NCBI GenBank assembly: GCA_003024785.1
Contig: PUQB01000077.1
Coordinates: 186,001-250,000 of the forward strand
Length of the DNA: 64,000 nucleotides
DNA from: Selaginella tamariscina
Taxonomy: Eukaryota; Streptophyta; Lycopodiopsida; Selaginellales; Selaginellaceae
Reading direction: 5' to 3'
Positions 1 to 48,070 of the stretch are shown here, piece by piece. The first letter of the stretch is position 1. Each line of letters opens with the position of its first letter. The notes beneath the pieces were generated by a model, which worked only from the letters and a program-made list of their open reading frames with translations, ran no database searches and had not been told where the DNA came from. A program made the translations under genes and the position numbers.

Positions 1-70
1 AATATGCATATGCAATAATACATAATTATGTTTAGAGATAATATCTCATGTTTGATTAATACAACTGATG

Positions 71-1107
71 GGCGGGATTAATCCCGCCCACGAATCCCTC
101 CGACGAGGAACGGTCGGCGGGATTAATCCCGCCGCCGACTCAACCCTTCGGAGAGAGTCGGCGGGATTAATCCCGCCTTGGACTCCCTCCGACAAGGAAG
201 AGCCGGCGGGATTAATCCCGCCGCCTCTTCCTCCTCGGGGGAGTCCGGCGGGATTAATCCCCCGACTCTCTCCGACGAGGAAGGGAGTCCGGCGGGATTA
301 ATCCCGCCGCCGACTCAACCCCTTCGGAGAGAGCGGCGGGATTAATCCCGCCTTGGACTCCCTCCGACAAGGAAGAGTCGGCGGGATTAATCCCGCCGCC
401 TCTTCCTCCGGGGGAGTCCGGCGGGATTAATCCCGCCGACTCTCTCGAGGAAGGGAGTCCGGCGGGATTAATCCCGCCGCCGACTCAACCCCTTCGGAGA
501 GAGTCGGCGGGATTAATCCCGCCTTGGACTCCCTCCGACAAGGAAGATCGGCGGGATTAATCCCGCCGCCTCTTCCTCCGACGAGGAAGGGAGTCCGGCG
601 GGATTAATCCCGCCGACTCCCTCCGCGAGGAGAGTCGGCGGGATTAATCCCGCCGGACTCCCTTCCTCGTCGGAGGAAGAGGCGGTCGGGATTAATCCCG
701 CCGGCTCTTCCTTGTCGGAGGGAGTCCAAGGCGGGATTAATCCCGCCCACAATTCTTACGACGGGGAATGGGTGGCGGGATTAAACCCGCACATAACTCT
801 CTCCAAAACTATGATTTCAAAGAGATTCGGGATAAATCCTGTCCCCAAATCTTTAAAACAGGGAAGTGGTGGCGAGATTAATCCCGCCACCCCTTCCCTG
901 CCTCCTAAAATGGTTGGCGGGATTAATCCCGCCGACAACTCTTTCTAATAAATTCTGGTAACTCTTCATCAGTTGAGAAGGTTATCGACGGGATTAATCC
1001 CGCCACTCTTTTCAGTGGCGGAGAAGCATTGCCCGGAGATGGTGGCGGGATTAATCCCGCCACTTCTTCAAGAGGCGAAAAAGAAATGGCCGGATTAATC
1101 CCGCCGC
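71..1107. repeat. Palindromic satellite array I
   Basis: About two dozen copies of the perfect 18-bp palindrome GGCGGGATTAATCCCGCC lie in tandem. The first four start at 71, 116, 160 and 205, a period of 44-45 bp. The spacers are a small recurring set of GACTC/CTTCC-rich segments, several of which are reverse complements of others, so larger hairpins can also form. Copies from about 770 on are more diverged and more widely spaced. The core contains two inverted GGATTA sites, a sequence that some homeodomain and GARP/Myb-like proteins bind; whether a protein binds here is unknown. Open frames across the array (GGINPA/AGLIPP peptides on both strands) follow from the palindrome and are not taken as genes. 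Confidence 0.95.
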
Positions 1108-1740
1108 CCCGGTTAACCTAGAATATTAAGTTAAAAGGATATTTAAACGTGATAAATCCCTAACGGAATATATTATAATCCTAATGCATTTCTAAACCCC
1201 TAAATTGTAATTTTAAGAGAGAATGTAAGAGAGTGAATCTTAATAAGTATTTTTAAATTTGTTTATAATACTTACTTGTAAACTGAAGGCGCCGTGCTTT
1301 CCTATAAAGAATAGCACCCAATTTAATCTCGCTCCTGAGATGATCACTATGAAGAAAAAAGAAGATCTACAGAGTGAAAAATACAGAAATGAAGAAACCC
1401 TTGCCGGAGAAAGAACCAGATCTGAATTTGAGTGGGAAATTAAATGCATTTTCAAATTTACATGTCAGACCGACAATACATATGTCAGAAATTCAAATTT
1501 TTTAAAAAGAACAGAAAATAAAATTTAAGATGAGTTGACACAAATATCCGACACTCTGACATATATACTCTCCAGTTCCAATGAGTATTTTAAAATTGCA
1601 TTTAATGTTATTCAAGTGATTCAAGCTGTTTAATATTACGAAATTTTAGACTATATTCTACATTCTTAGTATTCAAGTATATTTATATTATATATATATA
1701 TAAATATATACTTATACAATAAATAAATTGATATATTATT
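1108..1740. other. AT-rich spacer, nothing recognised
   Basis: This AT-rich stretch separates the palindromic array from an AT-rich repeat. A short open frame on each strand at 1240-1528 has no recognisable motif. I see no gene here. Confidence 0.6.
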
Positions 1741-2470
1741 ATGTATCATTAAAATATATTCATAGTCTGTTTATTATTATTATTTTCTTAATTACTCGAG
1801 TATTTAGTTTTCATTTCCTAGTATCAATGGGATATTCTTTAATATTTTATTAATATTTGAAGAATATTCTAATATTAAACCTGATTATCATAATTAAATT
1901 AGTCTTGTTCTTAATTATTGCAGTAATTATTCTACATTTGTATATATTAATGGGATTTTCTCAATTAATTTGTTATTATTTCAAGAATATTCATGTGTTA
2001 AACCTTATTATCAATATTAAATTAATACACACTATGAACATATTTTAAATTATACATAATAATACATCATTTTATCTAATATATAGTCATATATAGTTTT
2101 AATAATATATATATTAATATCATTTCCTTAATTACTTGAGTAATTAATCTTCTTTATATTAATGGGATATTCTTTATTATTTTCTTATTATTCCAAGAAT
2201 ATTCCAATATTAAACATGATTATGATAATTAATTTAGTTAATTATTTGAGTACTTAATTTACATTTGTATATATTAATGGGATTTTCTCAATTAATTTCT
2301 TATTATTTCAAGAATATTTCAATGTTAAACCTTTTTATCAATATTAAATTAATTATATTATTAAAACTATATATGGCTATATATTAGATAAAATCATATA
2401 TTATTATGTATAATTTAAAATATGTTCCTAGTGTGTTTATTAATTTTATTTTCTTAATTATTCGATGTTT
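1740..2470. repeat. AT-rich degenerate tandem repeat
   Basis: A diverged AT-rich unit recurs about four times, near 1825, 1945, 2155 and 2275. Shared marks are ATTAATGGGATNTTCT, then an AAGAATATTC block and a TTAAACCTNATTATCA block. Spacing is irregular at about 120-210 bp. No coding signal was seen. Confidence 0.65.
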
Positions 2471-2699
2471 GTTTTGCACACATATATAAACACAATCATA
2501 AATTTACACACGCATTACAAGAACTTACAAAAACACATATGCACACACATGCACAACCCTAAACCAAACTGAAGAAATAGGTTGCTTCTTTATTGAAAAC
2601 ATCATGTTAACGCATGTATGATATATGTACTCAATCTGTGTGACTGTATGTAACACATTGAATTTACATGTGTAATATTTATATTAAGCTTGTTGGAGC

Positions 2700-2729
2700 A
2701 AACCCTAAACCCTAAACCCTAAACCCTAA
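2700..2729. repeat. Interstitial telomere repeat
   Basis: Four back-to-back copies of the plant-type CCCTAAA unit. A weaker pair of copies lies at about 3165-3184. The run is far too short for a working chromosome end, so it is an interstitial block left by break repair or insertion. Confidence 0.85.
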
Positions 2730-2739
2730 TATGTAACAC

Positions 2740-3300
2740 AATGAATTTACTCATGTAATATGTATGTATGTCTGTGTGTATACACGTGTGCATGTATATA
2801 TGTGTACTCTGTATGTATATATGTGTACTTTCTGTCTTCTCTCATACATACACACCATGCATGATCCATGTTAATATGTACTGTCTCTCTCTCTCAAACA
2901 TACAACCATGCATGATCTATAATATGTACTCGGTCTCTCTAATATTATGTACTAATATGTATGTATGTCTGTGTGTATAATACACACCATGCATGATCCA
3001 TAATATGTACTGTCTCTCTTCTCTCATATACTATGTATGTATATCTGTGTATAATATGTGTAAGTATATATGTGTACTAATATATGCAATGTGTACAAAA
3101 ATAATTTTTCAACACTCTTCTTTCTCTCATACATACACACCATGCATGATCCATCCTAAATCCAAAACCCTAAACCCTAAACCCATGTAATATGTGTGTA
3201 TGTCTGTGTGTATACACGTGTGTATGTATATATTATGTGTATTAATATATGCAATGTATTGATGTATTGATACACATGAAACTTTAACACTCTCATGGAC
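2740..3300. repeat. TGTATGTCTGTGTGTA / CATGCATGATCC minisatellite
   Basis: Two motifs, ATGTATGTCTGTGTGTAT and CACACCATGCATGATCCAT, recur with variable spacing. Short frames such as 2768-2980 only reflect the simple composition. The CCCTAAA runs are embedded at both sides of this block. Confidence 0.7.
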
Positions 3301-3559
3301 ACACACATGTTAAATCCCTGCATGATTTATATTTTTGAGGTGTATGTGATACACCACGCACACGCACGCGCTAATAATATAATGAAAGAATATTCGTTTA
3401 GGGCGAATCTATATTTTATTCTTTTTAGGGTTTAAGTATATTCTCAGAGGAATATTCTATTAGGGTTGATATATATATTTAATTCCTTTAGGGTTTAGGT
3501 ATATTCTTAGGGTTTCAAGAGGCGGCGGCTGTGAAATCGGCGCGGCGGCTGTGCACACA

Positions 3560-3568
3560 GGTGAGATC

Positions 3569-3599
<31 letters not shown>

Positions 3600-3769
3600 A
3601 TATGTATAGGAGTGTGCGTATAATTTTATTTATTAGTTTTATCTCTCTCACACACGCATACACACGATATACATATACACATATATATATATATACCTAT
3701 ACATATATACATACATATATTATGTGTACCAGTATCTGTAAATTTTTTTTTATATGATCTTGCTTTACA

Positions 3770-3818
<49 letters not shown>

Positions 3819-3908
3819 ACATATATATATTATATATATATTATGTGTACCAGTATCTGTAAATTTTTTTTATTGATCTATCTCTCCCACACACACGCGC
3901 ACTGCTTT

Positions 3909-3941
<33 letters not shown>

Positions 3942-4093
3942 CACACACACACACACATTATATATATATATATTATATATATATTATGTGTACCAGTATC
4001 TGTAAATTTTTTTTTTATTGATCTATCTCTCCCACAACACGCGCACTGCTTACACAACACACACACACACACACACACACACAACACACACAC

Positions 4094-4127
<34 letters not shown>

Positions 4128-4750
4128 ATCAATGCATATTAACAAATAGTATACAACACTAGTTATATATATGCTTATATATTCATATGGGTTATATATC
4201 TATATACACACATATATATAGTGTGTGTTTTTCTGTATAATTTATTTATTTATTAGTTTTATCTCTCGCACACACACGCACACTCCTGTGTATGTATATA
4301 TGTGTGTGTGTGTGTGTTTGTTTATCTGTTTGATTTTATTTGTTTCGCTCACACACGCATACACACATATACATATACATATATATATACCTATATACAT
4401 ATAATAACATACAACACTAGTTTATATATATGCTTATATATTCATAGACTCTCTCTCTTTCTCTATAGATGATATTATCTATACACACATATATATGTGT
4501 GTTATCTGTATAATTTTATTTATTTATTAGTTTATCTTCGCAACCACCACGCACACTCTAGCTATATTATATGTGTGTGTGTGTGTTTGTTTATCTGTAT
4601 GATTTTATTTGTTTCGCTCACACGCATACACACGAATATACATATACACACATATATATACCTATGCCACACATATATTAGGTGTACCAGTATGCTGTAA
4701 TTTTATTTATTTATCTATCTCTTGCACACACACGTACACTCCTATACTAC

Positions 4751-4793
<43 letters not shown>

Positions 4794-4810
4794 TATATAT
4801 GTGTGTGTTT
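3560..4810. repeat. CA/TG/TA microsatellite with larger tandem block
   Basis: Long (CA)n, (TG)n and (TA)n runs are nested inside a larger unit. The unit starts with TATGTGTACCAGTATCTGTA followed by a T run and GATCTATCTCTCCC, at about 3720, 3842 and 3984, with a weaker copy near 4678. Period is roughly 120-140 bp for the first three. Frames in this region are low-complexity artefacts. Confidence 0.9.
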
Positions 4811-5741
4811 TTATCTCGCTAAGCCCCTCGAGCGGCGGGATTAATCCCGCCGCTATAGGTTATAGCCTCGGCGGCGGATTAATCCCGCCGCTATATGGTT
4901 GGGGCCATGGCGGCGGGATTAATCCTGCTGCCCAGGCCCTTCAGGCATGGGTGAGCGGCGGGATAATCCCGCCGCCGAGGCCCTTCACGCAGGCTATGGG
5001 CGGGATTAATCCCGCCGGATTCCGCGTAGGGCATTTACGGGATGGGCGCGGGATTAATCCCGCCGCCGAGCCCCTGCAGGCCATGGGCGCGGCGATTAAT
5101 CCCGCCGCTCTTCGGTTTGTTGTAGAGCGGCGGATTAATCCCGCCGCCCAGGGAATTCACGCAGGACATGAACGGCGGGATTAATCCGGCCCCACGCTCA
5201 TGCCCTTCGCGGAGGGCGCGGGATTAATCCCGCCGTCCATGTCCTGCGTGAATTCCTGGGCGGCGATTAATCCCGCCCCCACCATCCCTGTCCAAAAATG
5301 CCTTACATGGTGGCGGGATTAATCCCGCCGCGTACGCATGCCTGCGCGGAATTGGCGGGATTTATCCCGCCGCCATTGGCCTGCCTGAAGGGTCTAGGCG
5401 GCGAGATTAATCCCGCAAAATTTCGCATAGGGCATTGGCGTTCGGCGGGATTAATCCCGCCGACTAAGGCACGAGTGAAGGCCCTGGGAGGCGGATTAAT
5501 CCCGCCGGACGCCAATTCCCTGTCGGAATCGGGCGGGATTAATCCCGCCGCCATTGCCTGTCTGAAGTGCCTAGCGGCGGGATTAATCCCTCCCGATTCC
5601 GCGAAGGGAATTGGCGTCCGGCGGGATTAATCCCGCCGCATAGGGACCGAGTGAATCCCGCCGCATAGGGACCGAGTAAAATATATATTAATCCCTGTGC
5701 GGCGGGATTAATCCCACCGAGTCTTCAATGCCTGTTGGAGA

Positions 5742-5870
5742 AATGAATCTCGCCACCCTTCCCTTTTTCCTCCATTGGTGAGTTGGACCAATCCCAAACG
5801 TTTCTGTATAAGATGTAGAAGGTTTACAACATACCAATGGAGGGGACTGGGAAGGGTGGCGAGATTCATT
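5742..5870. repeat. Foldback hairpin, copy 1
   Basis: Inverted arms of about 37 bp, at 5742-5778 and 5833-5870, surround a loop of about 54 bp. The arms carry GCCACCCTTCCC on one side and GGGAAGGGTGGC on the other. The unit is repeated directly about 229 bp downstream with a few changes. Confidence 0.85.
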
Positions 5871-5970
5871 TAACCATCCCTTACATGGTGGTTTAGGGTG
5901 TAGGCCCAGATCGAGTGAAGGCCCTGGGCGGCGGGATTAATCCCGCCGAGTCTTCAATGCCTGTTGGAGG

Positions 5971-6098
5971 AATGAATCCCGCCACCCTTCCTTTTTTCTC
6001 CATTGGTGAGTCGGACCAATCCCAAACGTTTCTGTCTGAGACGTAGAAGGTTTTCAACATACCAATGGAGAGAATTGGGAAGGGTGGGGAAATTCATT
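5971..6098. repeat. Foldback hairpin, copy 2
   Basis: A direct repeat of the hairpin at 5742-5870, with similar arms (about 5971-6007 and 6060-6098) and the same loop core CCAATCCCAAACGTTTCTGT. The left parts of the two repeat units each follow a palindrome core and GTCTTCAATGCCTGTTGGAG, so the duplication includes part of the array. Confidence 0.85.
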
Positions 6099-6416
6099 TA
6101 ACCATCACTTACATGGTGGGCGAGATTAATCCCGCCCCTTTCTGGAGTCACTGAAGGGGTGTGAGAAATAAATCCTGCCCAGTTCTCTCTGAGACCGAGA
6201 AGGGTGGCAAGATTAATTCCGCACTCCCGTTCAAGGCCTCCAGAAAGGTGGCGAGATTAATCCCGCCCACTCTTTCAGGAGGCATTGAAGGGGTGGCGAG
6301 ATTAATCCTTCCATGTGAATATATATGTGTATTAGTATATATAAGTTGCATATCTCATTTTATTTACTTTTATCATCTTTCATAATATTTCGAGTAAAAG
6401 CTAGGAATCTATGTAA

Positions 6417-6503
6417 AACTGTCCAGAGCTCACATTTGTGGTGGTTCTAAAACGAAATGTTATCTTTCTTTTGCACTAACACAAATGTGAGCTTCGGACA
6501 GTT
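6417..6503 (+). other. 87-bp hairpin, miRNA-precursor-like
   Basis: Arms of 24 nt (6417-6440 and 6480-6503) pair with only two adjacent mismatches around a 39-nt loop. The size and pairing resemble a plant microRNA precursor, but a very short foldback element would look the same. It lies about 140 bp upstream of the first proposed exon of the fusion locus. No known microRNA was recognised. Confidence 0.5.
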
Positions 6504-6741
6504 AATTACGTCTACTTCTCTCTGTGTATTATTTTTGTATATTCGGGTTTATACAAGTGTGTGTGCGTTTTTATATAATTTATATTTATAGTGTATTATT
6601 TTGCAGAAGGACGATTTGATCAAACAAGGAGATCGAGTCATTAGTATGGAGTCGTCGTCAAATTCTGGGTAAGAATTAAAATAAAATCTGTTATACTCGG
6701 ATACTTGAACTAATCATTTTTGTATTCAGATGTGGAATTGA

Positions 6742-7318
6742 GTGACATTAAAGACAAGAGCAGGAGAAGAGATGGGCAGGGGGATTCTGGAATCAACTTG
6801 GCCATATTTTAAGATAAATGGGAAGCGCATTGGAGCAACCATGGTTGCTGTCAAATTAACCTCTGTCACATCTCATGGACAAGCAAAACAATGGAAAGTA
6901 GATTCGCTAGTCAAGCACCCGAAAGCAGGCTGCGAACCCAGATTGGACGATGCTCGACAGATATGCCTTGTTCCATCCAATGTCACGTTCTCGGATCCAG
7001 AGGTCGTCAGTTACAACATTAATCTCGGTTTTGTCGACTTGTGGATAATGACGTTCACGTGTTCACTAATGATGTTGACCTTGGAGTTCTTCTTCAACTC
7101 AACGAAAGCCCATCTATGGAGGGGATCCATCTGGATGTCTACTTCGAAGATCTTCAGACTCATCGAGTAGGTGTATTGTCAGGAGATATTGCTTCACAAT
7201 ACAGAAAATCAGCAAGTGGAGCAATCTTCCCTCTTCACATTGAAGAAGAACACAGCGACATCATAAGGGAGATTGAGAAGGTGGCTCGGTCTCAGGTTCT
7301 CTACAGATCACGTTCAAT
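6742..7318 (+). CDS. Unknown N-terminal region of the fusion locus
   Basis: Coding-like sequence in two frames: about 6760-7037, then 7041-7318. It contains a basic segment around the residues KQWKVDSLVKHPK and a following part with GVLLQLNES and RVGVLSGDIASQY. I recognise no domain. Codon use and base composition match the ParB-like part that follows, so it is taken as the amino-terminal region of the same protein. The frame change near 7040 cannot be explained by an intron, because no AG acceptor lies in the needed place. An upstream mini-exon at 6646-6668, ending at a GGGTAAG donor, could supply the start codon. Confidence 0.45.
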
Positions 7319-8041
7319 TTGCTTAGGAAGCTTCGGGAGCTGGAGAGTGTGCCGAGAACACTAGAACAGCTGCAGTCGGGGATCACACATGTTGATTCGG
7401 ATCGCAAAAGAAAATCATCAATCGTTTTGTCAGCTGCACCTGTGGCATCTCATGCTGCAATAAGTCACAAGGAAATGATGTTGGATGATAAGATTTATCC
7501 TTGTAGGGTTAAATATTGCAGCGTCAACCCAAACTTCAATTACAGGCCACTCAACCAGGAACGTGTAGCTGAGCTCATGGAGAAGATGAAGGACGACAAT
7601 TCTTATACCGTTCCACATAATGCTGTTTTGTGTCCATACTATGAAAGAAGGAAGGGTGCTGACAAAGTCTGGATCACAACACCAGAACAACTCATGAAGA
7701 TTCAGACGGAGAATAAAAGATCTATCAAGTACTACATCATTAGTGGCCAGCACACAATAACGGCAGCCCAACGACTTCTCGATGAACACAACAAAGGAAC
7801 GATGGCAACAAAACTTTCCGAGCATACCCGTGAGAAGCTGACAAAAAGATCGGCGTTTTTAGCTAAGCCGAATCTCACAATCGAGCAGTACCATAAGTTA
7901 TCGGCGGAATGGGACGCTGCCGACACCAACCACTACAACAGCAAAATATGGGAGAAGTTTAAACACACGCGAGCCGTGTGGGAATCTCTTCAGCGACCAC
8001 AAAGAGCTACCGCAGGGAATACACAATCTGCGGAATACCGG
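7319..8041 (+). CDS. ParB-like (ParB/sulfiredoxin fold) domain
   Basis: About 240 codons in one frame. The core resembles ParB N-terminal/DGQHR-type domains: a first part with RPLNQERVAELMEKM, in the position of the usual NPR-containing strand-helix, and about 100 residues later ISGQHTITAAQRL, matching the conserved G-[EQ]-H-R-x-x-A-A-x-x-L helix except that Thr replaces Arg. Family members bind DNA or NTP, and some are nucleases. In phages and bacteria ParB-like domains are often fused upstream of a DNA methyltransferase, which is the order seen here. The C-terminal part (to SAEYR) is helical and unknown. The segment ends at a CGG|GTAAGC donor (GT at 8042). The call rests on motif reading; structure prediction would settle it. 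Confidence 0.5.
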
Positions 8042-8057
8042 GTAAGCAAATTGTTTG

Positions 8058-8075
8058 GGCGGGATTTATCTCGCC
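8058..8075. repeat. Diverged copy of the satellite palindrome inside an intron
   Basis: GGCGGGATTTATCTCGCC differs from the array core at two positions. It lies just after the GTAAGC donor of the ParB-like segment, inside the likely intron (8042 to about 8102). It is the only copy found outside the two arrays. Confidence 0.6.
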
Positions 8076-8134
8076 GGTATATTAATCTGTCTTTTTCCTC
8101 AGAGAGTTAAATTGCAGCAGTTGATTTTGCCCAG

Positions 8135-8593
8135 GTGGGCGGGAAGGAAACATCATTTCTGATGATGTTGATTTCTTGCCCCGAAGATAGGATCTTTGCC
8201 AAATGGTTGGGGATTATGGAATCCTTTTCAAAAGGAACACTGAAGAAGAAGCAGACAAGTGAAGGGGAGCCCTCAGAAAAGTCTGCAAAGAAACCCAGTA
8301 AGACGCCGAAGGCTAAGTCTGTTCAATCTACAAAGGATGTAGACAACGATTTCAAGCTCACATGGTTGAAGCCTTTAAATGGAACAACGATGGAGGAGAT
8401 GGAAGTCTTGGCTGATTTGGTGATCGATGGCAAACTACAAATTAATAACAGCAGCCCAACCTCTCCTTTTCATCTCAAGGCAATGGAGTTGAAGACGGTC
8501 AGGCATTTCAAGGAGTGGTTGGGAATACACTGCCACAAACTGGGTTGGACCTCGACTTCAACATATGAAGAGGTAGCAAATATTTGCATGTGA
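8135..8593 (+). CDS. Lysine-rich linker region of the fusion locus
   Basis: An open segment of about 150 codons between the ParB-like and methyltransferase-like parts. The first third continues a folded domain (FAKWLGIMESFSKGT). A low-complexity basic linker follows (KKKQTSEGEPSEKSAKKPSK), then a helical part with LKTVRHFKEWLGIHCHKLGW. Just upstream, the other frame from 8103 reads KLQQLILPRWAGRK, which looks like real coding sequence, so the frame changes near 8140. No domain is recognised. The basic linker would suit a nuclear DNA-binding protein. Confidence 0.45.
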   Translation: MGGKETSFLMMLISCPEDRIFAKWLGIMESFSKGTLKKKQTSEGEPSEKSAKKPSKTPKAKSVQSTKDVDNDFKLTWLKPLNGTTMEEMEVLADLVIDGKLQINNSSPTSPFHLKAMELKTVRHFKEWLGIHCHKLGWTSTSTYEEVANICM

Positions 8594-9706
8594 CGAACGA
8601 TGATATGCTTGTCGAATGGGTGAACCAATCGGAAGATCTAGGCAAGAATCTATTGCACGCCAACGCCAAAAAGGAGAACATTGGGATGACGCCTTCTCTT
8701 ATGGCAGTCCTTCAGCAGCGGAGAACCGAATTGAACCTTATAAAGGAGGATGCTACGAATCACGACAAGCCCTACAGATGTTTGTTGTTAGATTCGGAGA
8801 CTTTATGGGGTAACATCACTGCTTGTAGGAAACCGTTTCAATTGTTCGTGATGGATCGGCGGGTGTCAAAAAATCTTTCGACAGATAGGGCACTAGAGGA
8901 TCTGGTGGAGAAACTTAGCCGTGCAAGCATATACATAGAAGGTATTTATTATTGAATTCATGCTTGCGCTCTTCACTGATACCTACTTTTTCAGGTATTT
9001 ATTTCTTGATTCTTGCTCATGTCACCGATACTTTTGCCTTCGCCTTCGCCAAGAAGAATAGACATCGTTGGACAGGATTTTATATGAACGATGCTAATCC
9101 CAAGTGCATTGATACGTTGTTCACTTGGTTGTTAGGAATGCGCCAAACAATTTCAAGCTTCCAAATGACTGGCCAGGCATCTGTTTGCACTCCAACGGCC
9201 CTGAACCTCCATCCGATACACCGATAGGTATGAGTGACGTATTCGGCAATGTACGTTATCCAAACATTACAAGTCAAGCGGCACGGAGCATCGTCAACTT
9301 GATCAGGGGTCCTCACAGTGATGCGTGGGTTTTTGACTACTGCACTAGGGGGTCCGTCTTGAAGGAGTGTTACCTTCGGCATACATGTGTGTTTGCCGTT
9401 GAGAAGGATAAGACCATGGTTGAGGACCTGAACAAGTGGATAGATTGGGTCTCAACTGAGTACCCCAACGATTCCATAAAGGCGTATTTGAGAAAGTTCC
9501 CTCCAGATAAGTGCGATAGCTCTGAAGGTGAATCTGGTTCAATCTCGAGTCTGAGAACGAACATCAATCAGATATTAGACCGGAAGTTATCTCGAGGAGT
9601 ACAGAACATTCGCACACTCCAGGACCCATGGAAACATCAATAGAAGATGCAGAAGATCTTGAACCATCTCACAAGCGGCTTAGACCTTCTTCGCCTCATT
9701 CAGAAG
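8584..9706 (+). CDS. Degenerate DNA methyltransferase-like domain (beta-class order)
   Basis: The parts are 8584-8941, an intron at 8942-8994 (G|GTATTT to TTTCAG|GT, frame kept), then 8995 to about 9120, 9125 to about 9590, and a tail to 9706. The order matches beta-class amino-methyltransferases. First comes a motif IV-like site, FQLFVMDRRVSKN, where DPP[YW] would be expected. A hydrophobic strand, GIYFLILAHVTDTFAF, follows, then a Pro/Asn stretch (VRYPNITSQAARSIVNLI). Last is a motif I-like strand, WVFDYCTRGSVLKECYLR, followed by VFAVEKD, which ends in the acidic residue that usually contacts the methyl donor. DPPY is replaced by DRRV and the F-x-G-x-G loop by YCTRGS, so catalysis is doubtful. 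The tail is acidic with a KRLRPSS cluster that could be a nuclear signal. Confidence 0.5.
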
Positions 9707-9808
9707 GTAATAGCGAAGAAGAATTGATAATGAATTGATAGAGTGATGAATAGTTGTAAATGAGTGTAACATAAGGCATTTTTGTATATTTCTTTTATAT
9801 TTGTACAG

Positions 9809-11184
9809 AAAATAAATTCTCAAGGATTAATGAAGCTTTTAGTTCAAACATGGGTCACACATTAACAAGGTAAATAATATACCTTGATAATTTTAAGGTC
9901 AGCTAATTATCATTTTGCAGATGTAATGAAATAATTGAGAACATGGATTTTCAGCATTGCCATGAGGTAAGAGAGGGGTTTGGCGACAATTTCTTGTGCC
10001 ACATGTCAGAATGACAGAGTTCATGCAGGAAATGGATAATAATGCAGCTCAAAACATCGTTACCATGGGGGCCACTTCAGTTTTTGCATCATCATTTTTA
10101 TTGGCTTCAGTTCCGAAATCAATTTCTTCAGCGCATGCAATATCTGAATCTTGTAAGGATGATGTACAATTAAATGATGAAGGGATAGGCAACGAAATAG
10201 TGGCAACGGATAAATGTGAAAGGGAGCAAACAAGTGATTTGCAAAGTATTCAAGAGGCAACGCTATCTCATGTTACTCATGGCCATATTGTGTTGTTGGA
10301 TGTCAATGGTGTTCTGCTTCATCGACAAAGGCCCGAGGATAGAAAAACAGAAATCAAACAAGGAGATTTCATTCCTTGTCATGGTAAATTTCGATATGAT
10401 ATTATTTTTCGTCCAGGGTTGGATCGTCTCTTTCAAAAGCTTAAGGAGATGGGTGCGCTTGTGGGGATTTGGTCATGCATGCAGATTCATAACTTAACAC
10501 CGCTGTTGAATTTACTTAAGAAACATTGTAGTGTTGCAGAAGAGGTGATTCGTAAAGATTGGATTTTTGACCAGCGAATGTGTCATAAACCTCTCGAATT
10601 TCACAATATAAGAAAGGAAAGCAAGCCACTTCTTCAAGAATGAAAGAATAATTGGGACTCATGGGGAGATCAGTCGCTTAAGGATAACGAAGAATGCACA
10701 TATCTTAGTAGTAGACGACTCTCCTCAGAAGGCTATGCTCAACCAAAACATTGCTTGTATTCATCCAATCACTTTCGATCCATATTCTGATACCGATATC
10801 ATGGATGAGCTAGTGAACTACTTGGATACGTGCCTCAGAAAGAAGAATCTCGAAAATTTTTGTGAGCAGTATCCACCGTATCATACATTTCCTGAAGCTT
10901 TTCTTTCTCGTGATATTGAATTTTATAAAATGAAGGATAGCAACCGGGCGCTTTATAATATTATTCTTAAGGAACGTCAGTTTTTAGATGAGCCTTTATG
11001 CAGACCTTCTCTTATCACATCTTATGTATTAACAAGGATGGCAACTCCCAATTGCATTCGTGAGAGTGTTAAGTGGTGGCAACAACATCAAGATATTGAC
11101 CAAAATGATTTGATTAATCCGGAGAGTGATGATTTAGACAAAATGAAAAGATTTCTTTGTATGATAGAAAGAAAGTATTTATAA
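9809..11184 (+). CDS. FCP1/SCP-like HAD phosphatase domain
   Basis: Exons 9809-9869, 9921-9966 and 10029 onward are joined by in-frame GT-AG introns, and the first follows in frame from the methyltransferase tail. Motif I is VLLDVNGVLLH; the second Asp of the usual DxDxT/V signature is Asn, which would weaken acid catalysis. Motif II is VGIWSCM, and the C-terminal metal-binding motif is ILVVDDSPQKAM at about 10702-10737. A FRPGLDRLFQKL stretch between them is typical of NLI-interacting-factor/FCP1 domains, which remove phosphate from the RNA polymerase II C-terminal repeats or other phosphoproteins. One frame change near 10640 splits the domain. After it the frame runs to TAA at 11184 with a plausible C-terminal extension. 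The next gene on the same strand starts about 1.3 kb downstream. Confidence 0.7.
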
Positions 11185-12511
11185 AAAAATTAACATGTTG
11201 ATAAGAAAATGATTTCATTTGTAATTATGTTTGATAGTATTTCTTCATTATTGTAAACTATTTTTAGAATAATATGAATATTCTAAGATATTTTAGGAAT
11301 ATTCCTTACTAAGTAAGGTTATTGAAGGATTAATTAATTAATTAATTAATATTTAAGGCTTAATTACATATTAATTAAATGATTAATTAATAATTAAAAC
11401 TTAAGTATTAATTAGTAATTTATTTTATATTCCCATTTTCACGTATCATGCCCACTTTAGTTACAACGTGCATGAGAGAATATGGGTATATTCATATCTC
11501 TTCACATGTATATACAGACGAAAAAGCATCATCTCATATATACAAGTCTTAAATTCATATACTTATACATACATACATATTTATATATATATATATATAT
11601 ATAAGTCTTTTTAAGTGTATATTTAAATATATATATTTATATATACACATACACATGTATACAAGTCTAATGTTGTATAATCATAATGTGGTACGTGTGT
11701 AAAATGTTATTTATGTGTGTGCACAAACACACACACAACCACCCGAAAATCCGTGTGTGTGTGTGAGTGTGTTTGCCGAAATTGGCAATAACTCATGTGT
11801 CGGAGGTGTGTGTGTGTGCACACGCGCGTGCGTTTGTGAATAGAGAGAAATCCTACTAAATTTGCACATACATACACAGAAATTACTATACATATATATA
11901 AGATTTTATCTGTAGCCATGTCGCCGTGACGCTCACACTAACCTCTTGTCGCCGCAAAAAAAAGAACAAAAGTGCCCTCTCTCAACAATGGAGAATGGAG
12001 AGAAGAATGGGCAGCCCTAAACCTTTACCTAAAATCTAACACTTAACCCTTTGACCCTTAACTATAAAACTGTGTTTAATCAAACCATACAACAGTATAT
12101 ACAATACTTGCGATAAATAATGCACTATATAAAAGGATACAAATACAAACACATATTTAAGTAAAAATTTGTATGTTAAAAAAACATATTATTATATAAT
12201 TAAATAAATATTCGTGTAAAAATATGTATTTATAATGTTTACATTAGATAAAATACTGGATCAAATAACTATATAATTATAATAAATAAATTAACAGAAT
12301 ATAAACAAGTCATAAATAAATATGTCAGATGAATGTAGATTAGACACATATTTATTTAAAAGACAATAAAGATTGCTCTATCTTTATGTGAAGTGCTATA
12401 CTATATTTAAGATCTATACGTTTCCTTGAATTAAATATTCGCCCACGTTGAGTCATGATTGTGAATTTTTGAAATGGTAATATCCGATATTTACTAAAAG
12501 ATGATTAAGTA
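11185..12511. other. AT-rich spacer with simple repeats
   Basis: Contains a TTAA tandem run near 11327-11350, a (TA)n run near 11581-11600 and TG/CA-rich sequence at 11690-11830. The short CA-derived frames at 11707-11919 are composition artefacts. A proximal promoter for the transposase gene would lie in the last 300 bp, but no clear TATA box stands out in this AT-rich context. Confidence 0.6.
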
Positions 12512-15500
12512 ATGCTGTTGTTTTTCTGTCACGTTTGTGGTAACTGCTTGCAAATGGCCAGGATTGTTTATGGCAATTTGGATCACGATGTTCCTGTGAT
12601 AGATGGTGTTGAAATCATTCTTACTAATAAGATTAGAACGTTCTTTGGCATTTTTGATTGGCAAAGTGTTGGTCTTTTTAAACTTCTTCATGGGCAGTCT
12701 GCTTTAGAGATCGAAATGAACGAGGGCCAAGATGCTGGAGGGAAGGATAATCCAGGATATGTTTTGTTACCGGATGAAGGACCATTGTTTAAGTTTGTCG
12801 TTGTTTCTGACTCTGAATACTCAACGTTGAAGGACCTTTTCACTTCTAATACCTGCAAAAAGGGAAGAATTCTTATCGAGGGTTCCACGATCATTCATAC
12901 AAATGAATTGCCTGTTGCGTATGATGGGGATGTCATTTTTGAGCTCCCTCCTTCCGAATACAAATACAAAGGAATGAATCGGAAAGAGGATGGACATACC
13001 TGGACAGTAGGAACGACCAGCAACTGGAATTTTCAAGTGAGGGTGTCTAGGAGCAAATGTGTTGGGAGCCTTTGCTGTATCAACCCGGATTGCCCTGCTT
13101 CTAAGGCAGGATTTCCGAACTGCACTAAATGGAAAGGATGTATTGTTTCCCCACCTTCAATCGACAAACTGGCAAAAGGATTGACATGTTTTTTCTGTAA
13201 AGAAAATCCATTGTGCCTTGAAGTTTGTCATGCTGTGGCGTTTTGCGTTTTCCCAGACAACATAACCAAGACTAGATTGTTTATCCACCAGGGAAAACAT
13301 TCACATCCAGTGGGTGATGGTGTTTCTGCATCGAACAAAGAAGAAATGCATATGGCGGTCCAGAATGCAACAGAAAGAACTCCCAGAGCTAGTCCAAGAG
13401 TCATCAAAATGGCAGCATGTAAAGATGCTATTTTTGGTTTCCTATTAGATAATTCTGAGCCTGGAAGTTGGGATAAGCTCATGGATCATTTGCAGCCATT
13501 ATCAAACAATCGAAGGTACAATTAGAGTTTTAATTTGTGCTGAGCATTCTTTGATAATACCTTTGATGCAGAGTTCGTCAATGGGTAGCGTCCGCAAAGA
13601 GAACTGCTGTTGAAATGCTAGAGAATATTGATGGATTATTGGAGCTGAAACGAAGGTTGTCTATCCCATTCATCCACATGATTCACTATCCTGAGATGAA
13701 TTTCCGTGGTTCAGACGACCAGGCATTAGTTTTTAAAATGACGGTTTCAGGGCCAGGTTCTGGAATCGATTATGTAAGGATGTGCCAACCTCCTCTTGGC
13801 CCTTTGCAGAAGAGTTGGGTTCTACTTATCACACACACCGTGTTGTTGATAAGTGGATCACTCTGGCATTGCATGTTTACGACCCAAAGTAAGATGTTAT
13901 CTTTTTGTTGTTTGCTTAACTCTTTTATTATTTATAGTGTGCGCCGATTATCCACCATTGCTTATGGTGACATGAAGAGACAAACGGCTGGAGCTGTGGA
14001 GAAGTTTTTTCGTGCTATGTTGGATGTCTGTTCTGAGAAGGGAATTTACAATGTGCAGTTCGTTGGGTTTATGTCCGATGAAGCAGGAGCGATCTGGCAA
14101 GCAATTAGGAATGTGTTCTTTAATGGCCAAGAAATTCCTGGACATGAACGGAGCTGTATCTTTCACTATGAACAAGCCATACAACGTGTGACAAGGAAGT
14201 GGGTCCCTCTTGAACATCAACAACAACATCTTCAACTTTTAAGATCATGGCCAACAGCCACATCAACAACTGATCGTGAAGAAATTGAAAATAATCTTTT
14301 CCGCTTTTGGAATGAAAATGTGAAGGATGTTGGAGTTATGCAGACGTGGTTTTCATGGTGGGAAAGACAGAAGAATCATATTTCAAATGTTGTTCTTGAA
14401 AGCATGCCGGAGAATGCTGCAAGGGTTGTGCCCATGACAAACCAATCGGAGTCTGTTCACGAAAGATGGAGGAGGGCTAGAGATTTAAAATACATTTCAT
14501 TGTACCAAGCTACAATCCACGACCTGACTGAATCAGTGCGACAATGTGCTCTTGTGAAGGCTTTTAGAGATGGAAGGTATAGTGGTTCCGGGCCGACTTC
14601 AGAGGAGCTCTCAGCAAGGTTCGAGAGAAGAATGTCAAATGCTAACTCAACAACACCTACAACAAAGGTTATCATCGACTTAGTTGAAGATGTTGCTCCA
14701 TTAAGCATGCAGGATACTGCTTTTGTGGCTGCCACGAATGTTGAACATCGCACTGTGCAAAGAAATATGGGGTCAGAGGCTGAACGATCCCACCGACCAG
14801 ACATCTTCTATAGTGAACAGGTTATTCCAACACAGTGTAGACGGAAGCGATGATTGGATTTTCAACTTGCAGAAGAACATGAAGAATATGTTCTTGTTGA
14901 AGAACAAGATGTTACACCTGGACAATGGGCGATTAGAAGATGTGGTGAAAGAAGTTCTGTGAAATGTCTGGCAGGCTTTCCCTCTTCAGGAGGTCAGTGG
15001 AGTGCTTATGACAAAAAGATCAGTCCTAGTGGTAATCGAGTGGCTGCTCCTTGTTTTTTTGGAAGGATCAGATACAATGACAAAGAAATTGGTGAAGAAT
15101 GCTTTCGCTCACAAATGATGTATTTTTGTCCAACAAACATGCTTTGCAGCAGACATCCAAGACCAACTATTGTTTCTCCGCCAGTTTCTACCTCGGTTTG
15201 GAAAGTTCAAGTGGGCACGAAGCTGATAGCAATGGAGATCAATGATCTGGCAAGATCAGGTTTTATACTAGCTGGGCTTCCTTCAGCTCATGCAAGAGTG
15301 CCAGGTTTTTCAACACCTCATGTTCCTTCAGTTCCTGTTGGAGTCACTGGATTTTCAACACCCCCTGCACAATTTTGTGGACCTCCTGTTCCTGCAAGTG
15401 GTCGTGCAACAAGAACACCTTTAGGGATGTCTAAGAAACAATAGGTAAGTTTTGAAGCATGTTTGACGTTGGGAGCATATGTCGCAGAAGTTAACGTGGT

Positions 15501-38075: not shown

Positions 38076-41000
38076 TATCAAGCCACGATAAGAACAAAGA
38101 GGCTTGACTCAAGAGCAGACAAGAACTAAAACAAGACAAGAGCAAAACAAGAATTAGGAGACGAGAATAGGAGGCAAGAGCAAGACAAGAACAAGCAAGA
38201 ATGATCGTAGAATGACAGGTGTTAATAGTAACTGATTATACAACAATTACGTCGGAGCTTTTATGCTCACAACTCCAAGAGCTAATATAGGCATGAGCTA
38301 AAAATATACTTCAAAAGCTAATCGAGGCATATCATATAGATATATCCTGTAAGCATATCCTATAGGCATATCTTGCAAGCATATCCTGTATCCCGCATCC
38401 TGTATCTTGTATCTTGTATCCTGCATCTTGTATCATGGATCCTGTATCGAGTCATGATAGCACCTCCTCCCAAAGAATGAGTTCCACAAGTCCTGGGATT
38501 TGGTTTAACAAGATAACGTCGATGGAAGGCAGCAACCTTGGAAGAAGCATGGAGTAAATTGGATGTAAATTCCCAAGTGCGATCAGCAGGCAAATAACTT
38601 TTTCAATCCACCAAGTATTAAAGTTGGCATCGATGAAGATAAGAATCAAGGATGGTTGCAGCTTCGTACTTAGGTTCATTGTCAATGACCACAGGAGGGG
38701 GAGGAGAAGAAGCATGACCAGAAAGAGAAGAAGGATAATATGGTTCCAACAAAGAGGTGTGAAACACATGATGAAGTTTCACAGTAGATGGTAGCTCTAA
38801 TCGAAAAGCTATAGAATTAACCTTAGCCGCAATCCTATAAGGACCCAATCATTGAAAATCCAACTTAGAAAAAGGCTTATTGGTGTAAATATGCTGACGA
38901 AGAAGCCACACAAAATCATCAATCTTGTGCAAGTGCCAGCTGATGATGAGCATTAGCATGATGCTTGTACCATTCCTATGCCTGCTGAAGATGAACTTGG
39001 AGATCATCTTGTACTTGACAAAGATGCTGAAGACGATCCTGTACTACAGGAGCGAAAGAAGGAGAAGCATGAGGAGCAAAGTCAAAACGTAGATGGTAGC
39101 TTATAAGAGTGAAGAAAGGTGTCTAGCTTGTAAATGCGTGAACGGAGTTGTTGTAGGCAAACTCCGCCATAGGAAGAAGGTCCAACCAATTATCTTGTTA
39201 ATAATTGATGAAGCAGCGAAGATACTGCTCCAAGGTCTGAATTGTTTTAACTACCCATCAGTTTGCAGATGATATCTTGAAGAAATATCCACTTTAACTC
39301 TCCGAAGAAGCTCTCACCAAAATCTGGACATGAATTGTGGGTCTTGATCAGAAACAATGCTCTCAGGAAGACCATGTGTTAGAACACTTCGCGGATCACC
39401 AATTCAACAGTTGTCTGGCCTGTAGCCATCTTATTACATGGTAGGAAATAAGCCTGTTTGGTGAAATGGTCAACCACCACAAGAACTGCATCAAATCCAC
39501 GAGAAAGAGGAAGATTTATGAGGAAATCCATAAAAATGGATCTCCAATGAGCAAAGGGAACAAGAAGAGGACAAAGAAGACTAAAGGGCACATGACGAGG
39601 CATCTTCAACCTGTTGTAGGTTTCACAACTCTATACAAACTTTTTCACAAAACCTCGCAACCCAGGCCACCAATAGTTGCATGTCATCAACTCAACTATC
39701 TTGGCCACATCAAAATGTCATGTAACTGGGGTATTATGATAATCTTGTAGCACACGAGTCATGTAAATGCCAATAGGAATATACAAGAGACCTTCTCAGT
39801 ACTGGAGTTCATTCTGTATGGTAAACAACTTGTAGTCTGTACAGGAACTAGAAGAAGAAGAGCTTGTGATGTCAGGACTAATGTGTGAAAACACATTCTT
39901 TGCCAAGTCATCTGTAACCAATTGCAAATGGATGTTTTGTAGAAGTGTGGAATCTGCTGGAGCCTGATGAACCTGTAGTGTTGCAAGCCAAAATCAATCA
40001 GGACCCAATAACACTTATTTTTGATAATCATATGCAGGATCACCCAGGGTCGGTGCAAGACAAGAGTGCCTAGACAATGTATCCGCTTTGCTATTTTAAA
40101 AATCAGGCTTGTAGACGGTGACAAAATCAAAATGTGATAGGAATCCACCTATTTAGCCTGTCGCCAACTGAAAACTTGAGCCGTTTTAAAAAAAACTCTA
40201 GGTTCTTGTGATCTGTAAGAACTTATACAAGATGCGCAGCACCTTTTAGGAAGTGCTACCACTCCTTGAACGAATCCAAAATGACCTTGAGTTCTTTGTT
40301 ATGAATCTCGTAATTGATCTCCACCGAAAGGAATTTACGAGAGTGAAAGGCTACAGGATGGAGTAACTTGTCTTCTCCAACTTGTGATAGGATAGAACCT
40401 ACTGCAAAGTCTGAAGCATCTGCTTTAACAAAGAAGAAACGAGAAGGATTAAGATGTGCTAAAATTGGAACTATCGTGAAGGCGTCCTTGAGTGTTATGA
40501 ATGCATGTTCTGCCTTATCAGACCAAGAAAAATCCCATGTGCACTTGGTGAGTTCTGTGAGTGGAAGTACACGCTTGGAGAAGTCCTGTATGAATCGCCT
40601 ATAGAAGTTTGCAAAGCCAAGGAAACATTGTACGTCTTGTACAGACTTGGGCCTGTGCTAAAATTAGAGCTATCATGAAGGCGTTCTTGAGTGCTGTGAA
40701 TGCATGTTCTGCTTTATCGGACCAAGAGAAATCCCCTATGTGCTTGGTGAGTTTCGTGAGTGGAAGTACATGCTTGGAAAAGTCCTATAGAATTGTCTGT
40801 AGAAGTTTGCAAAGCCAAGGAAAATTGTATGTCTCGTACAGACTTAGGCCTCTCCCACTCCACGATAGTCTTCACCTTGTGCATGTTCATGAAAATGCCA
40901 GCAGAAAAGACGATGTAGCCCAAGAACTCCACAGTATCCCTGTCGAAAAAACACTTCTCCAACTTCGCATACATGCTATGCTTGCGAAGCTTCTTTAGAA

Positions 41001-44000
41001 CTAGTCGTACATACTTGTCATGTGCCACCTGGTCCTTAAAGAAAATCAAAATGTTATTGAGTTAGATCACCATAAACTAGTTCAAGAAGTTGTTCACCAT
41101 GTGTTGAAACACGGCTAAGGCATTTGTAAGTCCAAAAGGCATCACTGTGTACTCAAAATGTCCATACCTTGTGTAAAAGGCAGTCTTTCACTCATTACTT
41201 GGATGAATCCGTACAAGATTGTAGGCCCTTTATAAGTCGATCTTTTTGAACACTTTTGCTCCTCGTAGCCGATTAAAAAGTTCTGGGATCAATGGCAATG
41301 GAGTATCGGTTCCGGATGGTGACTTAATTCAAAACTCCTGTAATCCACAACCAAATGCAAAACTCCCATCTTTCTTCTTAACAAAGAAGATAAGTGCTTT
41401 TGTAGGGGACTTTGAGCGACGAATGAAGCCGGATGCCAAGTTGTCCTCGATGTACTAGCGAAGAATCTCCAATTTTGTAAGTGATAGTGCATAAATTGGT
41501 CCGAACAGTGGAGTCTTCCCTTCTGCAAGATCGATAAGATAGTCGTATGTGAATAGGAAGAACTGTAGCCTGTGCTTATCAAAAAAGTTCTAAAATGAGT
41601 GATACTTGAATGGCAAGGAAAAGTAGAAGGAGGAAAAAAAGATTGAAAAATAGGAGAGTCAGATACATGAAAGGTAAAAGAGGATGTAGGAGTTACTTAA
41701 AAAATAAAGAGATGAAAAGGAGCAGGATTAGTGGCAAGTTCCATGCATAGTAGTGGTAAGAACTCAGAGAGGAGAAGGAGGGGAGCTGTGAATGAAAAAG
41801 GGAAAGAATCTTAGGGGATGGAAAAACAGTGATAAAAAGAGCAGGATTGAGAAAAATCTGTGCAGATGTTGAGGAGTGTATAGAATTGGAAGAATTCTGT
41901 ACAGAAGTCTGTGAATGCACAGGAGTGAGGAGAGCCTGCGAATGTGCTGATGAACTGACAAGAGGTGGATCCTGTTGAGGAGGAACCTTCGACACTAATA
42001 CAGGATTAGAAGAACCCTGTACAGGAATCTATGAACTTATAGGAGTGGAGAGAGCCTGCGGATGTACTGACGAACTGACATGAGGTGAATCTCGTTGAGA
42101 AAGAATCTTCAACACTGATACAGGAACATGCACGGTCAATCCTGTAGCTTATACTGCCTCAGACACTAAGGTCATATCCTACACGCATGAAGGTACATGA
42201 TTGATCTTGGCTGAAGAGAGAAAAACGTGACCATCCTAGACCTCCAGTTGATCTAAGGTTATAACCACAAACCATGGCATGCTTTAAAACGATGGGAGTC
42301 ATCCGAGTCTTGATCCAATTGAAAGAAATCAAACAGTTGAATGCGCCATGAGTACAAGAGAGAGGTGTGGTAGCATGGGTAACTACGATAGAAGCAATCA
42401 GACAACCATTTGCAACCTCTACATGAACTGCACGCTTCAACTTCACCACCGAAATACCATGCTGAGTTACAAAAGTATCATCTATGAAGTATGCATTTGC
42501 ACAAGTGTCTAACAGGGCAAACTCCTTGAGTTCTTGGTTATGGAGGCGAATGTGTACAGGAAACTTGAGTGATGGGAAGGTATGAGCAACACCAATAGAG
42601 CTTGCACCTACATCCAACTTTGTGGCTCCTAAACGAAGTGGACATTGAAGTTTTTCGACTGAACTTCAGCTTCAACTTCACACGTCTTGAACTTCTTGGC
42701 TTTAATAGGACATTATGTCACCTTGTGTCCTGCTTCACCATAATACAAGCATAATTTTCACCGTGACGATGTTGCTTCTCCACATCTTAAAGTGGACCAT
42801 GCTTGTATTTATCAACCTCCATAGAAAGTACTTTAGAAGATATCGTAGGAATATGTGCTACAGCTACAAGATTGGCTTGCAGGAATTGCTGACGGGATTT
42901 TTCCTAATGACGCTCGAACAAATAGTTGTCGCAGCAAACGGCATGTTGCATGATCTCCTCTAAGGTTTGAGCATTCGGTAACATAAGGAGAAGGTCCTTC
43001 ACGTCATCTTTCAACCCAAAATGGAAGTGTTCGATTAATACAGTCTGTCCCATGAAATGTTCGTGCAAAGTTGCTGAAATTCGGATGCATAGACAGAAGC
43101 TGGTTAGAATTCTTGTGTGAGCTTCCATAACTTTGTGCATGCGGAACGATATTTATCGGAATCTCTAAAGCAGGCTTCAAAGACATCCACAAATCCTTCA
43201 AAGTCTTTTATTAATGGGTCGTCACACTCCAGCAAAGGGGCAACCCAAGCCTGTGGGGATCCAACTAGTAAGAATGCCAAAAAGTTAACCTTTTGTGCAT
43301 CATTTGAGTAACGGCGTGGTTGCATGCGAATCAAATGCCTAATTTGATTCAGAAAACCTTAAAAATCTGTGCGATTGCTATTAAACTTCTATGGCATGTG
43401 ATCTTTGGCTCTGAAGAAGAGTTCGATGTAAAGGAAACCACAAATACTTGAGAGATAGCCTGTGCAGCAGCCTTAGAGGATGCATTAGCAATTGCATGTG
43501 CCGTGTTGGTGGAACCTTGCAAATTTGTGACCACTTGGCGCAAAGTGGCCAACTCATGAAGTAACATTTGGTGCTCGCATTGAAATTGCTCAAAATCTGT
43601 CATAATTTATGAAAAAAATGAGGAAAACAAGGAAAAAAAACTAAGGAAAAAAAAAAGTAATTGGAAATTGAGGAGCTATGAAAACAGTTACTATCAAACT
43701 GTCAAGCCATGATCCAAGAACAAGGAGGCTTGACTCAGGAGCAAGACAAGAACTAAGAACAAGACAAGAATAGGACAAGAACTAGGAATAAAATGAGAAT
43801 AGGAGGCAAGGAGCAAAACAAGAACAAAACAAGAATGATCGTAAAATGATAGGTGTTATTAGTAACTGATTGTACAACAATTAGGTCGGAGCTTTTATGC
43901 TCATAACTCCAAGAGTTAATTTAGGCATGAACTAAAAATATACTCCAAGAGCTAATTTAGTCATGAGCTAAAATAGTGTCCCTTATCTTATAGGCATATT

Positions 44001-46969: not shown

Positions 46970-47852
46970 AAATTAAAGGTAGTGCCGAAGGAGTTAGGGT
47001 TGTTCATAACACTGAGTAATGGAAAGAGGTCCGGCATCAAATTATCTGTTCGCTGGGGCGGTTGCAGGGAGCAGTATCCCGAACGGCAACAGCTCCTCTA
47101 GACCGTCTCAAGGTCATTCTTCAAGTACAAACAGCACATATGACTGCACTTCAAGGGATAAAGCAAATATACAAGGAAACTGGCGTTTCTGTTACTACAT
47201 AGGAAATGGAGTTAACATACTTAAAGCAGTGCCTGAGTCAGGTATCAGGTTTTATGCGTTTGAGAAGCTCAAGAAGTTAGCGGCAAGGATTGAAGGTAAA
47301 GACGAGCCAGGAACATTTGGTCGGCTTCTTGCCGGTGGTGTCCGCTGGTGCAATCTCTCTAACATCGATCTATCCTCTGGAGGTATTGAAAACCAGACTA
47401 CAAGTTCTTCCTGGAAAGGCAAGTATGATCACATTAGCTAGAGATATCTATGTGAAAGAGGGTGTTCCTGCACTGTATAGGGGTTTAGTTCCATCCTTGA
47501 CAGGGATAATCCCCTTGGCAGCCATTGAGTTTGCTACATATGAAGCTCTCAAGAAAGGGTGTAGGTCTTTATTGCCTCCAGGATCTGAACAGAAGCCATG
47601 GATGCACATGGCATGTGGTACTGTTGCTGGGGCTGTTGCAGCAACTACCGTGTATCCTTTGCAACTTATTCGCACGAGGTTACAGGCACAGCCTCTTATG
47701 TACGAAGGCATGATAGCTGCCTTCAAAACTATAGTGAAGACTGAGGGTGTGCAGGGCTTGTACAAGGGCTTAGGACCAACATGTGGAAAGTAATACCTGC
47801 TGCTGCCATAACTTACACGGTGTATGAACAAATGAAAAAGTCCCTGTTCTAA
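46970..47852 (+). pseudogene. ATP-Mg/Pi mitochondrial carrier pseudogene, copy A
   Basis: An intronless copy of the carrier part of a calcium-dependent ATP-Mg/Pi carrier (SCaMC/APC type), starting at ATG 47019. Visible parts are [19 protein letters not shown], the signature YPLEVLKTRLQV, and YPLQLIRTRLQA of the third repeat, ending KKSLF. The family has an N-terminal EF-hand regulatory region; it is absent. The frame is broken near the start, near 47335 and near 47780. The lead-in ATTAAATTAAAGGTAGTGCC matches the junction found in copies B and C. Shared 3' flank with copy C extends to about 48060. Confidence 0.88.
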
Positions 47853-48070
47853 CTCAATGAATCAGATGGTAATAATACATGTTGGATTACTACAACAAGT
47901 GTTCTTGCTCATTTCCCTTATAAATATGTTTTAAAGAAGAGAATAACTAAGTGATGCCCTATTCCACATACCAAACAACATATACATGTAGACACGGAAT
48001 AAGAACCATCTAGAGAGAGATAAAGAGAATGAATAATGTAACAAGCATACTGCGTGGTTATTCACCGGAG
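47853..48070 (+). repeat. Flank duplicated with carrier copy C
   Basis: AACTCAATGAATCAGATGGT, GTAATCCAAC-like and GAATAAGAACCAT blocks recur inverted at about 54560-54720, showing that copies A and C share their downstream flank. Confidence 0.75.

Follow-up and report, generated by a model that had tools for sequence, protein, structure and literature searches.

A recently amplified DNA transposon of Selaginella tamariscina with palindrome arrays at both promoters and an accessory gene under purifying selection

Sola transposons have a DDD transposase, 4-bp target duplications and terminal inverted repeats (TIRs) of 11-1124 bp, some are longer than 15 kb, and they are found in Physcomitrium patens, according to the sections of the published descriptions that we drew on (PMC10741241; PMC9033089). 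Sola2 elements with an extra protein and differing 3' parts are also on record (PMC3627910, in excerpt). In Arabidopsis, VANC21 binds a short motif that was multiplied in the noncoding parts of VANDAL21 through the formation of tandem repeats, and causes loss of DNA methylation there (PMC5735166, in excerpt), and for the ParB superfamily a conserved active-site arginine has been named (PMC5512222, in excerpt). Here we describe a locus of Selaginella tamariscina in a stretch of 64,000 bp (contig PUQB01000077.1, positions 186,001 to 250,000; hereafter the window), which an earlier note had read as a fusion of ParB-like, methyltransferase-like and HAD phosphatase parts. We have hardly any doubt that this locus is a DNA transposon, and we consider it likely, by analogy, that it is a Sola-like element with an accessory regulator that acts on palindrome arrays, comparable to VANC.

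The window holds the right-hand part of the element, and the left 3,678 bp lie upstream (L029 6323-10000, which is C1137:182323-186000; the assembly searched is a 300.7-Mb genome, in which copies are identified by L or C numbers). There are three genes on the element, a minus-strand gene for a DUF7869 protein that fills the left part and two plus-strand genes on the right, the accessory gene and a NIF/HAD gene. The features in the window, with the evidence for each in brackets, are:

1-11473, no strand: right-hand 11.5 kb (three quarters) of the 15,151-bp DNA transposon (shared sharp copy ends)
71-1105, no strand: palindrome array 1, 21 GATTAATC-centred sites, mostly at ~44 bp spacing (palindrome scans)
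4834-6307, no strand: palindrome array 2, preceding the 950-aa gene, with 22 less regular GATTAATC-centred sites (palindrome scans)
6646-6668, plus strand: possible first exon (MESSSNSG) of the accessory gene (predicted from the sequence only)
6730-8041, plus strand: exon 2, with the ParB/sulfiredoxin-like motif block at ~7480-7790; broken in the window copy (copy frames, selection)
8042-8102, plus strand: intron 2, holding one weak palindrome at 8058-8075 (copy frames, palindrome scan)
8103-8941, plus strand: exon 3, ending in the motif-IV-like DRRV region (copy frames, selection)
8995-9738, plus strand: exon 4, containing the motif-I-like DYCTRGS region and closed by the TGA at 9736-9738 (copy frames, selection)
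9850-11184, plus strand: a gene of its own for a NIF/FCP1-type HAD protein, with possible exons at 9850-9869, 9921-9966 and 10029-11184 (domain match, copy frames)
11447-11473, minus strand: right TIR (27 bp), imperfectly matching the left end ATGCAAGTTGTAAC (end alignment)
11474-11477, no strand: 4-bp target duplication on the right side (GAGA), the left GAGA directly preceding the element (end comparison)

Twenty further copies were fetched for comparison of ends and frames, and in 19 of them similarity ends at the same base, window position 11473 (in the exception, L021, it ceases at 10887). The left end was located in the window copy and three others, and again in 8/9 additional copies, the ninth (C560) having its left end outside the fetched piece. 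Element lengths are 15,151 bp for the window copy, 14,761 bp for C663, 14,553 bp for C576 and 14,943 bp for C929, the last including 5,000 N. Imperfect 27-bp TIRs are present in all four copies aligned end to end. Exact 4-bp target duplications flank the first four copies (GAGA, ATAT, ACTT and AGAT) and 5/8 of the additional copies in which both ends were read (CCTA, TTTT, GTGT, TATT and ATGT), or 9/12 overall. The 21-bp right end has 1,168 exact copies in the genome (576 forward, 592 reverse; control 0), and if most copies are full length the element would make up perhaps 5-6% of the 300-Mb genome (ends times ~15 kb).

Searching the assembly with the ParB-like block, we scored 140 matches from 5,850 first-look candidates, indicating at least 140 copies; all 140 are at 91-100% identity, 37 of them (window copy counted) are perfect across 277 aa, and four have a single internal stop. 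Among 17 main-family copies, including the window copy and leaving out the divergent L021, L026, L027 and L028, the mean pairwise difference is 0.19% (range 0-0.51%, substitutions only, over up to 4,994 bp), so the amplification burst is recent. Aligned to the window copy, the 20 other copies show 12-35 inserted columns each. The coding blocks sit within a bounded transposon, as a repeat that the earlier note did not recognise, and are not an ordinary host gene; the suggestion in the earlier note of a factor of a mobile element is right and well supported.

The DUF7869 protein is the likely transposase, judging from its profile and residue pattern. It matches the PF25273 profile (1.8e-13 and 3.4e-27), and an open exon of 660 aa was found in C663 and C576 (2/4 copies read); the frame is broken in the window copy. 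We found 77 relatives at E 1e-3, most of them unnamed, with the mosses Physcomitrium patens and Ceratodon purpureus and the liverwort Riccia sorocarpa among those named, and molluscs, a coral and a sea cucumber among the others. When 55 of these 77 were aligned, D169, D172 and D327 proved invariant, with E366, D367 and D369 near-invariant (in 90% or more of the 55 rows); this pattern fits a DDD/E active site, short of proof. The N-terminal region of the protein also contains a cluster of Cys residues, followed further along by a weak match to HTH_psq (E 0.07). A PDB sequence search with the transposase profile gave no match, none of 159 pattern matches of viral contigs to the transposase alignment was confirmed, and a full-text search of open-licence literature returned no paper on DUF7869. 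Based on the duplication length, the element size and the moss relatives, we lean towards the Sola superfamily, whose transposases were compared by description. The transposase family of VANDAL elements is a different one.

The window contains 23 exact copies of the 18-bp palindrome GGCGGGATTAATCCCGCC, or 40 sites if up to two mismatches are allowed, every one of them within the element (0 expected from 100 shuffles), and there are 27,128 exact occurrences genome-wide (reversed control 0). Each of the divergent promoters carries one array, with sites defined by GATTAATC centres: the first GGGATTAATCC core of array 1 is 158 bp upstream of the transposase ATG in 3/3 copies, and the last GGGATTAATCC site of array 2 is 475-717 bp upstream of the possible ATG of the accessory gene. 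Per position, arm agreement is 90-100% in array 1 and 73-100% in array 2, and spacer agreement is mostly 25-80%. On contig C1, the sole cluster lacking an exact right end nearby that was examined, the palindromes flank an accessory gene at 94% identity. We believe that the palindrome clusters probably act as control sites. The ratio of observed to expected CpG reaches 1.0-1.1 in the arrays, compared with 0.72-0.77 for the two genes and 0.50-0.56 beyond the ends of the element, which is weakly consistent with escape from silencing.

Between the two arrays, at window 3600-4800, there is a long stretch of CA/TA microsatellites, common to many fetched copies among the matches listed. In L032/L023 (C929), 5,000 N separate the two remaining palindrome stretches, so the arrays seem difficult to assemble.

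Pieced together from uninterrupted exons of different copies, the plus-strand accessory gene encodes ~950 aa in three exons and a possible short first exon. Exon 2 is uninterrupted as 477-478 aa in 4/20 copies, three of which (L017, L018 and L023) differ in the reading of a short stretch near 7270-7350, where paired indels may be hidden; exon 3 (304-aa frame) is open in 7/20 and exon 4 (273-aa frame) in 8/20. In the window copy the frame is broken near 6740, 7040, 7290, 8103-8140, 8590, 9113, 9570 and 10636. Compared with the divergent L026, L027 and L028, and with codons containing indels or stops removed before counting, the whole 950-aa protein has a synonymous divergence (dS) of 0.11-0.12 and a ratio of nonsynonymous to synonymous divergence (dN/dS) of 0.22-0.26. 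Between subfamilies, dN/dS is 0.15-0.21 in the ParB-like part of its exon, 0.12-0.15 in exon 3 and 0.34-0.44 in exon 4. The protein is under purifying selection, and these ratios indicate coding beyond chance; the consecutive plus-strand coding blocks reported in the earlier note are genuine, at 6742-11184, and the motif ISGQHTITAAQRL is present in them as it had claimed.

Relatives of this protein were sought in several ways. None of the 7,999 top word-sharing candidates scored against the full-length protein reached 1e-3, and none of 725 candidates for the ParB-like block reached E 10, in searches that require shared 5-residue words and length and may miss distant relatives. Five reads of the ParB-like block gave 22 pattern matches in viral contigs, none confirmed, and a tblastn search of phages with the block gave a single match, at E 4, to an RNA polymerase. 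We therefore have a selected accessory gene without detectable known relatives on a young transposon family. An origin from a DNA virus was considered and rejected, since none of the frames read showed a viral gene.

The ParB and methyltransferase folds proposed for this protein hold at the level of motifs only, with all profile and homology searches negative. Pfam, PHROGs and NCBIfam gave nothing relevant for either block; the ParB-like block matched neither PF02195 nor the ParB-methylase family profile, nor anything in a PDB sequence search, and the methyltransferase-like block did not match PF01555 and lacks the DPPY and FxGxG motifs, having DRRV and YCTRGS in their places. SGQHT is found in 5/5 aligned copies, and the conserved Arg following GxH is absent. 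The active-site Arg of the ParB motif stands after GxH. We also built profiles from phage loci, using 70/81 ParB-methylase loci and 76/81 methylase loci, the rest having been dropped as duplicates, as too long or for lack of a long frame. Against the 70 fusions, the ParB-like block scored 12.5 vs a shuffle mean of 15.1 (reached by 35/40 shuffles; reversed 15.6) and the methyltransferase-like block, aligned with hhalign, scored 17.4 vs 16.2 (13/40; reversed 19.5); the comparison with the 76 methylase loci was without significance, the shuffle control covering the fusion profile only. This is a test of low power, with one element sequence and a narrow template (Neff 2.1), and the Javan113 seed protein itself scores 24.4 bits to PF02195, below the Pfam cutoff of 26.3. 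Given these negative comparisons, both names are motif-level guesses. It had also been proposed that the methyltransferase-like part binds rather than catalyzes; the catalytic-type motifs are indeed changed, and binding remains a fair guess.

The FCP1-type phosphatase domain is borne out, with a PF03031 match of 1.4e-8 in the window copy and 6e-12 in L010 (46 bits vs a cutoff of 21.8; profile positions 2-155 of 160). The HAD frame runs stop-to-stop for 406 codons in L010 and L023 (2/20 copies). The catalytic loop of NIF/FCP1 HAD phosphatases follows the rule DxDx(T/V); here it is altered to LLDVNGVLL in the window and copies, with DVNG where DxDG is expected, and a PDB sequence search with the HAD protein gave chance-level matches only (E 0.45 and up). 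Between subfamilies, dS is 0.05-0.19 for the accessory exons and 0.01-0.02 (L026-L028) for the HAD gene. The two parts therefore do not share one history, and the much lower value of the HAD gene suggests that the 3' part was exchanged or recombined between subfamilies. Over 9850-11184, synonymous divergence is ~10x below that of the ParB-like exon and 3-4x below that of exon 4.

In place of the proposed triple fusion there are two neighbouring genes separated by a stop, and we are confident that the accessory gene and the HAD gene are separate. The GT-AG pairs of the three introns proposed in the earlier note (9707-9808, 9870-9920 and 9967-10028) are present, but a continuous frame into the phosphatase is not supported. 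The latter two connect a possible ATG at 9850 to the HAD frame and may well be introns of the second gene. A single ParB-methyltransferase-phosphatase protein would require 9707-9808 to be spliced out, which would excise the stop at 9736, and the GT-AG pairs are intact in all seven copies compared. However, the methyltransferase-like frame passes the donor at 9707 and stays open to that stop, as it also does in the divergent L021 and L026, where it comes to the stop after one more codon (in L027 and L028 one base is missing there, and by alignment reading the frame continues only ~8 codons). There is an AATAAA at 9811, the HAD frame stands alone in L010 and L023, and dS drops sharply between the accessory exons and the HAD gene. 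We consider the fusion very improbable.

We propose that the locus is a cut-and-paste DNA transposon of 14.6-15.2 kb that would be moved by the DUF7869 protein (Sola-like, DDD/E). Its accessory protein, with a degenerate ParB/sulfiredoxin-like and a degenerate beta-class-methyltransferase-like block, would be a DNA-binding factor that recognises the 18-bp palindromes and, once bound, keeps both promoters active or unsilenced in the manner of VANC, and the NIF/HAD gene, whose catalytic motif is altered, would be a passenger or helper. The assignment of palindrome binding to the accessory protein is a tentative one, made by analogy. The palindromes might be bound by the transposase itself, like the subterminal repeats of other DNA transposons, with the 950-aa protein acting otherwise; they are element-associated and better conserved than the spacers, and the Cys cluster and HTH_psq match of the DUF7869 protein would suit such a role, but the arrays of the window copy are 3.7-4.8 kb and 5.2-6.6 kb away from its ends, by the promoters and not the termini, and we think this unlikely. 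The element might also borrow a host S-phase activator through host transcription factor sites, since the palindrome halves GGCGGGA/TCCCGCC resemble an E2F core and are placed at both promoters; 27,128 perfect 18-bp palindromes with a conserved TTAA centre are more than a short host site needs, however, and our estimate of this explanation is lower still. A ParB/parS-like transposon system, in which a diverged ParB protein fused to a dead methyltransferase loads at the promoter arrays and protects or organises ~27,000 genome sites, would, if true, amount to a novel type of machinery for anti-silencing or bookmarking in transposons, and we regard it as doubtful. Hardly any weight can be given to the idea that the element has captured a catalytically active DNA methyltransferase and is marked by it: the motif blocks are, by eye, in the order of beta-class enzymes, but the changes at DPPY and FxGxG, the lack of a PF01555 match and an hhalign score that 13/40 shuffles reached all speak against activity.

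Several observations weigh against our preferred reading, a Sola-like transposon with a VANC-like accessory regulator. Exact 4-bp duplications are missing from 3/12 copies (C1293 has five bases, TATTT; C519 and C837b match at three of four, CTAA/CTAT and TTGT/TTTT), and the Sola placement is by comparison with published descriptions of Sola. The arms of array 2 are more variable (73-100% per position), the high CpG ratio of the arrays may come simply from youth and GC content, and which protein binds the palindromes we infer. Exons 2, 3 and 4 and the HAD frame are all open together in 0/20 fetched copies, the breaks, mostly small indels, being possibly decay or read errors. The N-terminal part of exon 2 shows weak selection (dN/dS 0.44-0.60), and for the HAD gene selection is not shown, its dN/dS of 0.43-0.67 (0.43-0.57 against L026-L028) coming from only 7 to 16 changes. 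ParB and methyltransferase folds went undetected by every profile method (Pfam, NCBIfam, PHROGs and phage-fusion profiles).

Other features of the window lie outside the element. To its right, at 12509-14853, there are two long plus-strand frames without a convincing Pfam match, perhaps another transposon gene. Fragmentary minus-strand frames at 40259-41061 resemble, we presume, the reverse transcriptase of a Ty3/gypsy-type retroelement, and an inverted pair of gene pieces at 47016-47922 and 54653-55490 (arms 85-95% complementary, ~7-8 kb apart) presumably resembles mitochondrial-carrier genes. A 91-bp unit is present in three tandem copies at 50450-50722, with 95-97% identity to the first.

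In searches of open-licence titles and abstract starts for eukaryotic transposons with ParB or methylase cargo, for 4-bp, Sola or moss transposons and for anti-silencing factors, the element was undescribed among the matches listed. The ParB-methylase fusions of phages and bacteria, such as the Javan113 protein and Bce_0392 (PMC5512222, in excerpt), share with the accessory protein, by eye, a GxH block before motif-IV-like and motif-I-like blocks; unlike them, the accessory protein lacks the key ParB Arg, DPPY and FxGxG and has no significant profile similarity. The HAD protein matches nearly the whole NIF/FCP1 phosphatase domain (PF03031), and differs in having DVNG for DxDG and in being carried by a transposon. 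With Sola elements, as far as described in the sections covered (PMC10741241; PMC9033089), the present one shares the 4-bp duplications, a TIR length within range, the >15-kb size and relatives in moss, whereas palindrome arrays and the present pair of accessory genes are absent from those sections. With the Arabidopsis VANDAL/VANC system, in the excerpt covered (PMC5735166), it shares a transposable element-encoded extra protein and arrays of a short motif in noncoding regions, a likeness at the level of sequence, and the VANDAL21 motif is the 9-base YAGTATTAY vs an 18-bp palindrome here. Because this is a young, high-copy family with a selected accessory gene and 27,128 palindromes, it permits a direct test, beyond VANDAL and in another superfamily, of how some transposons outrun silencing.

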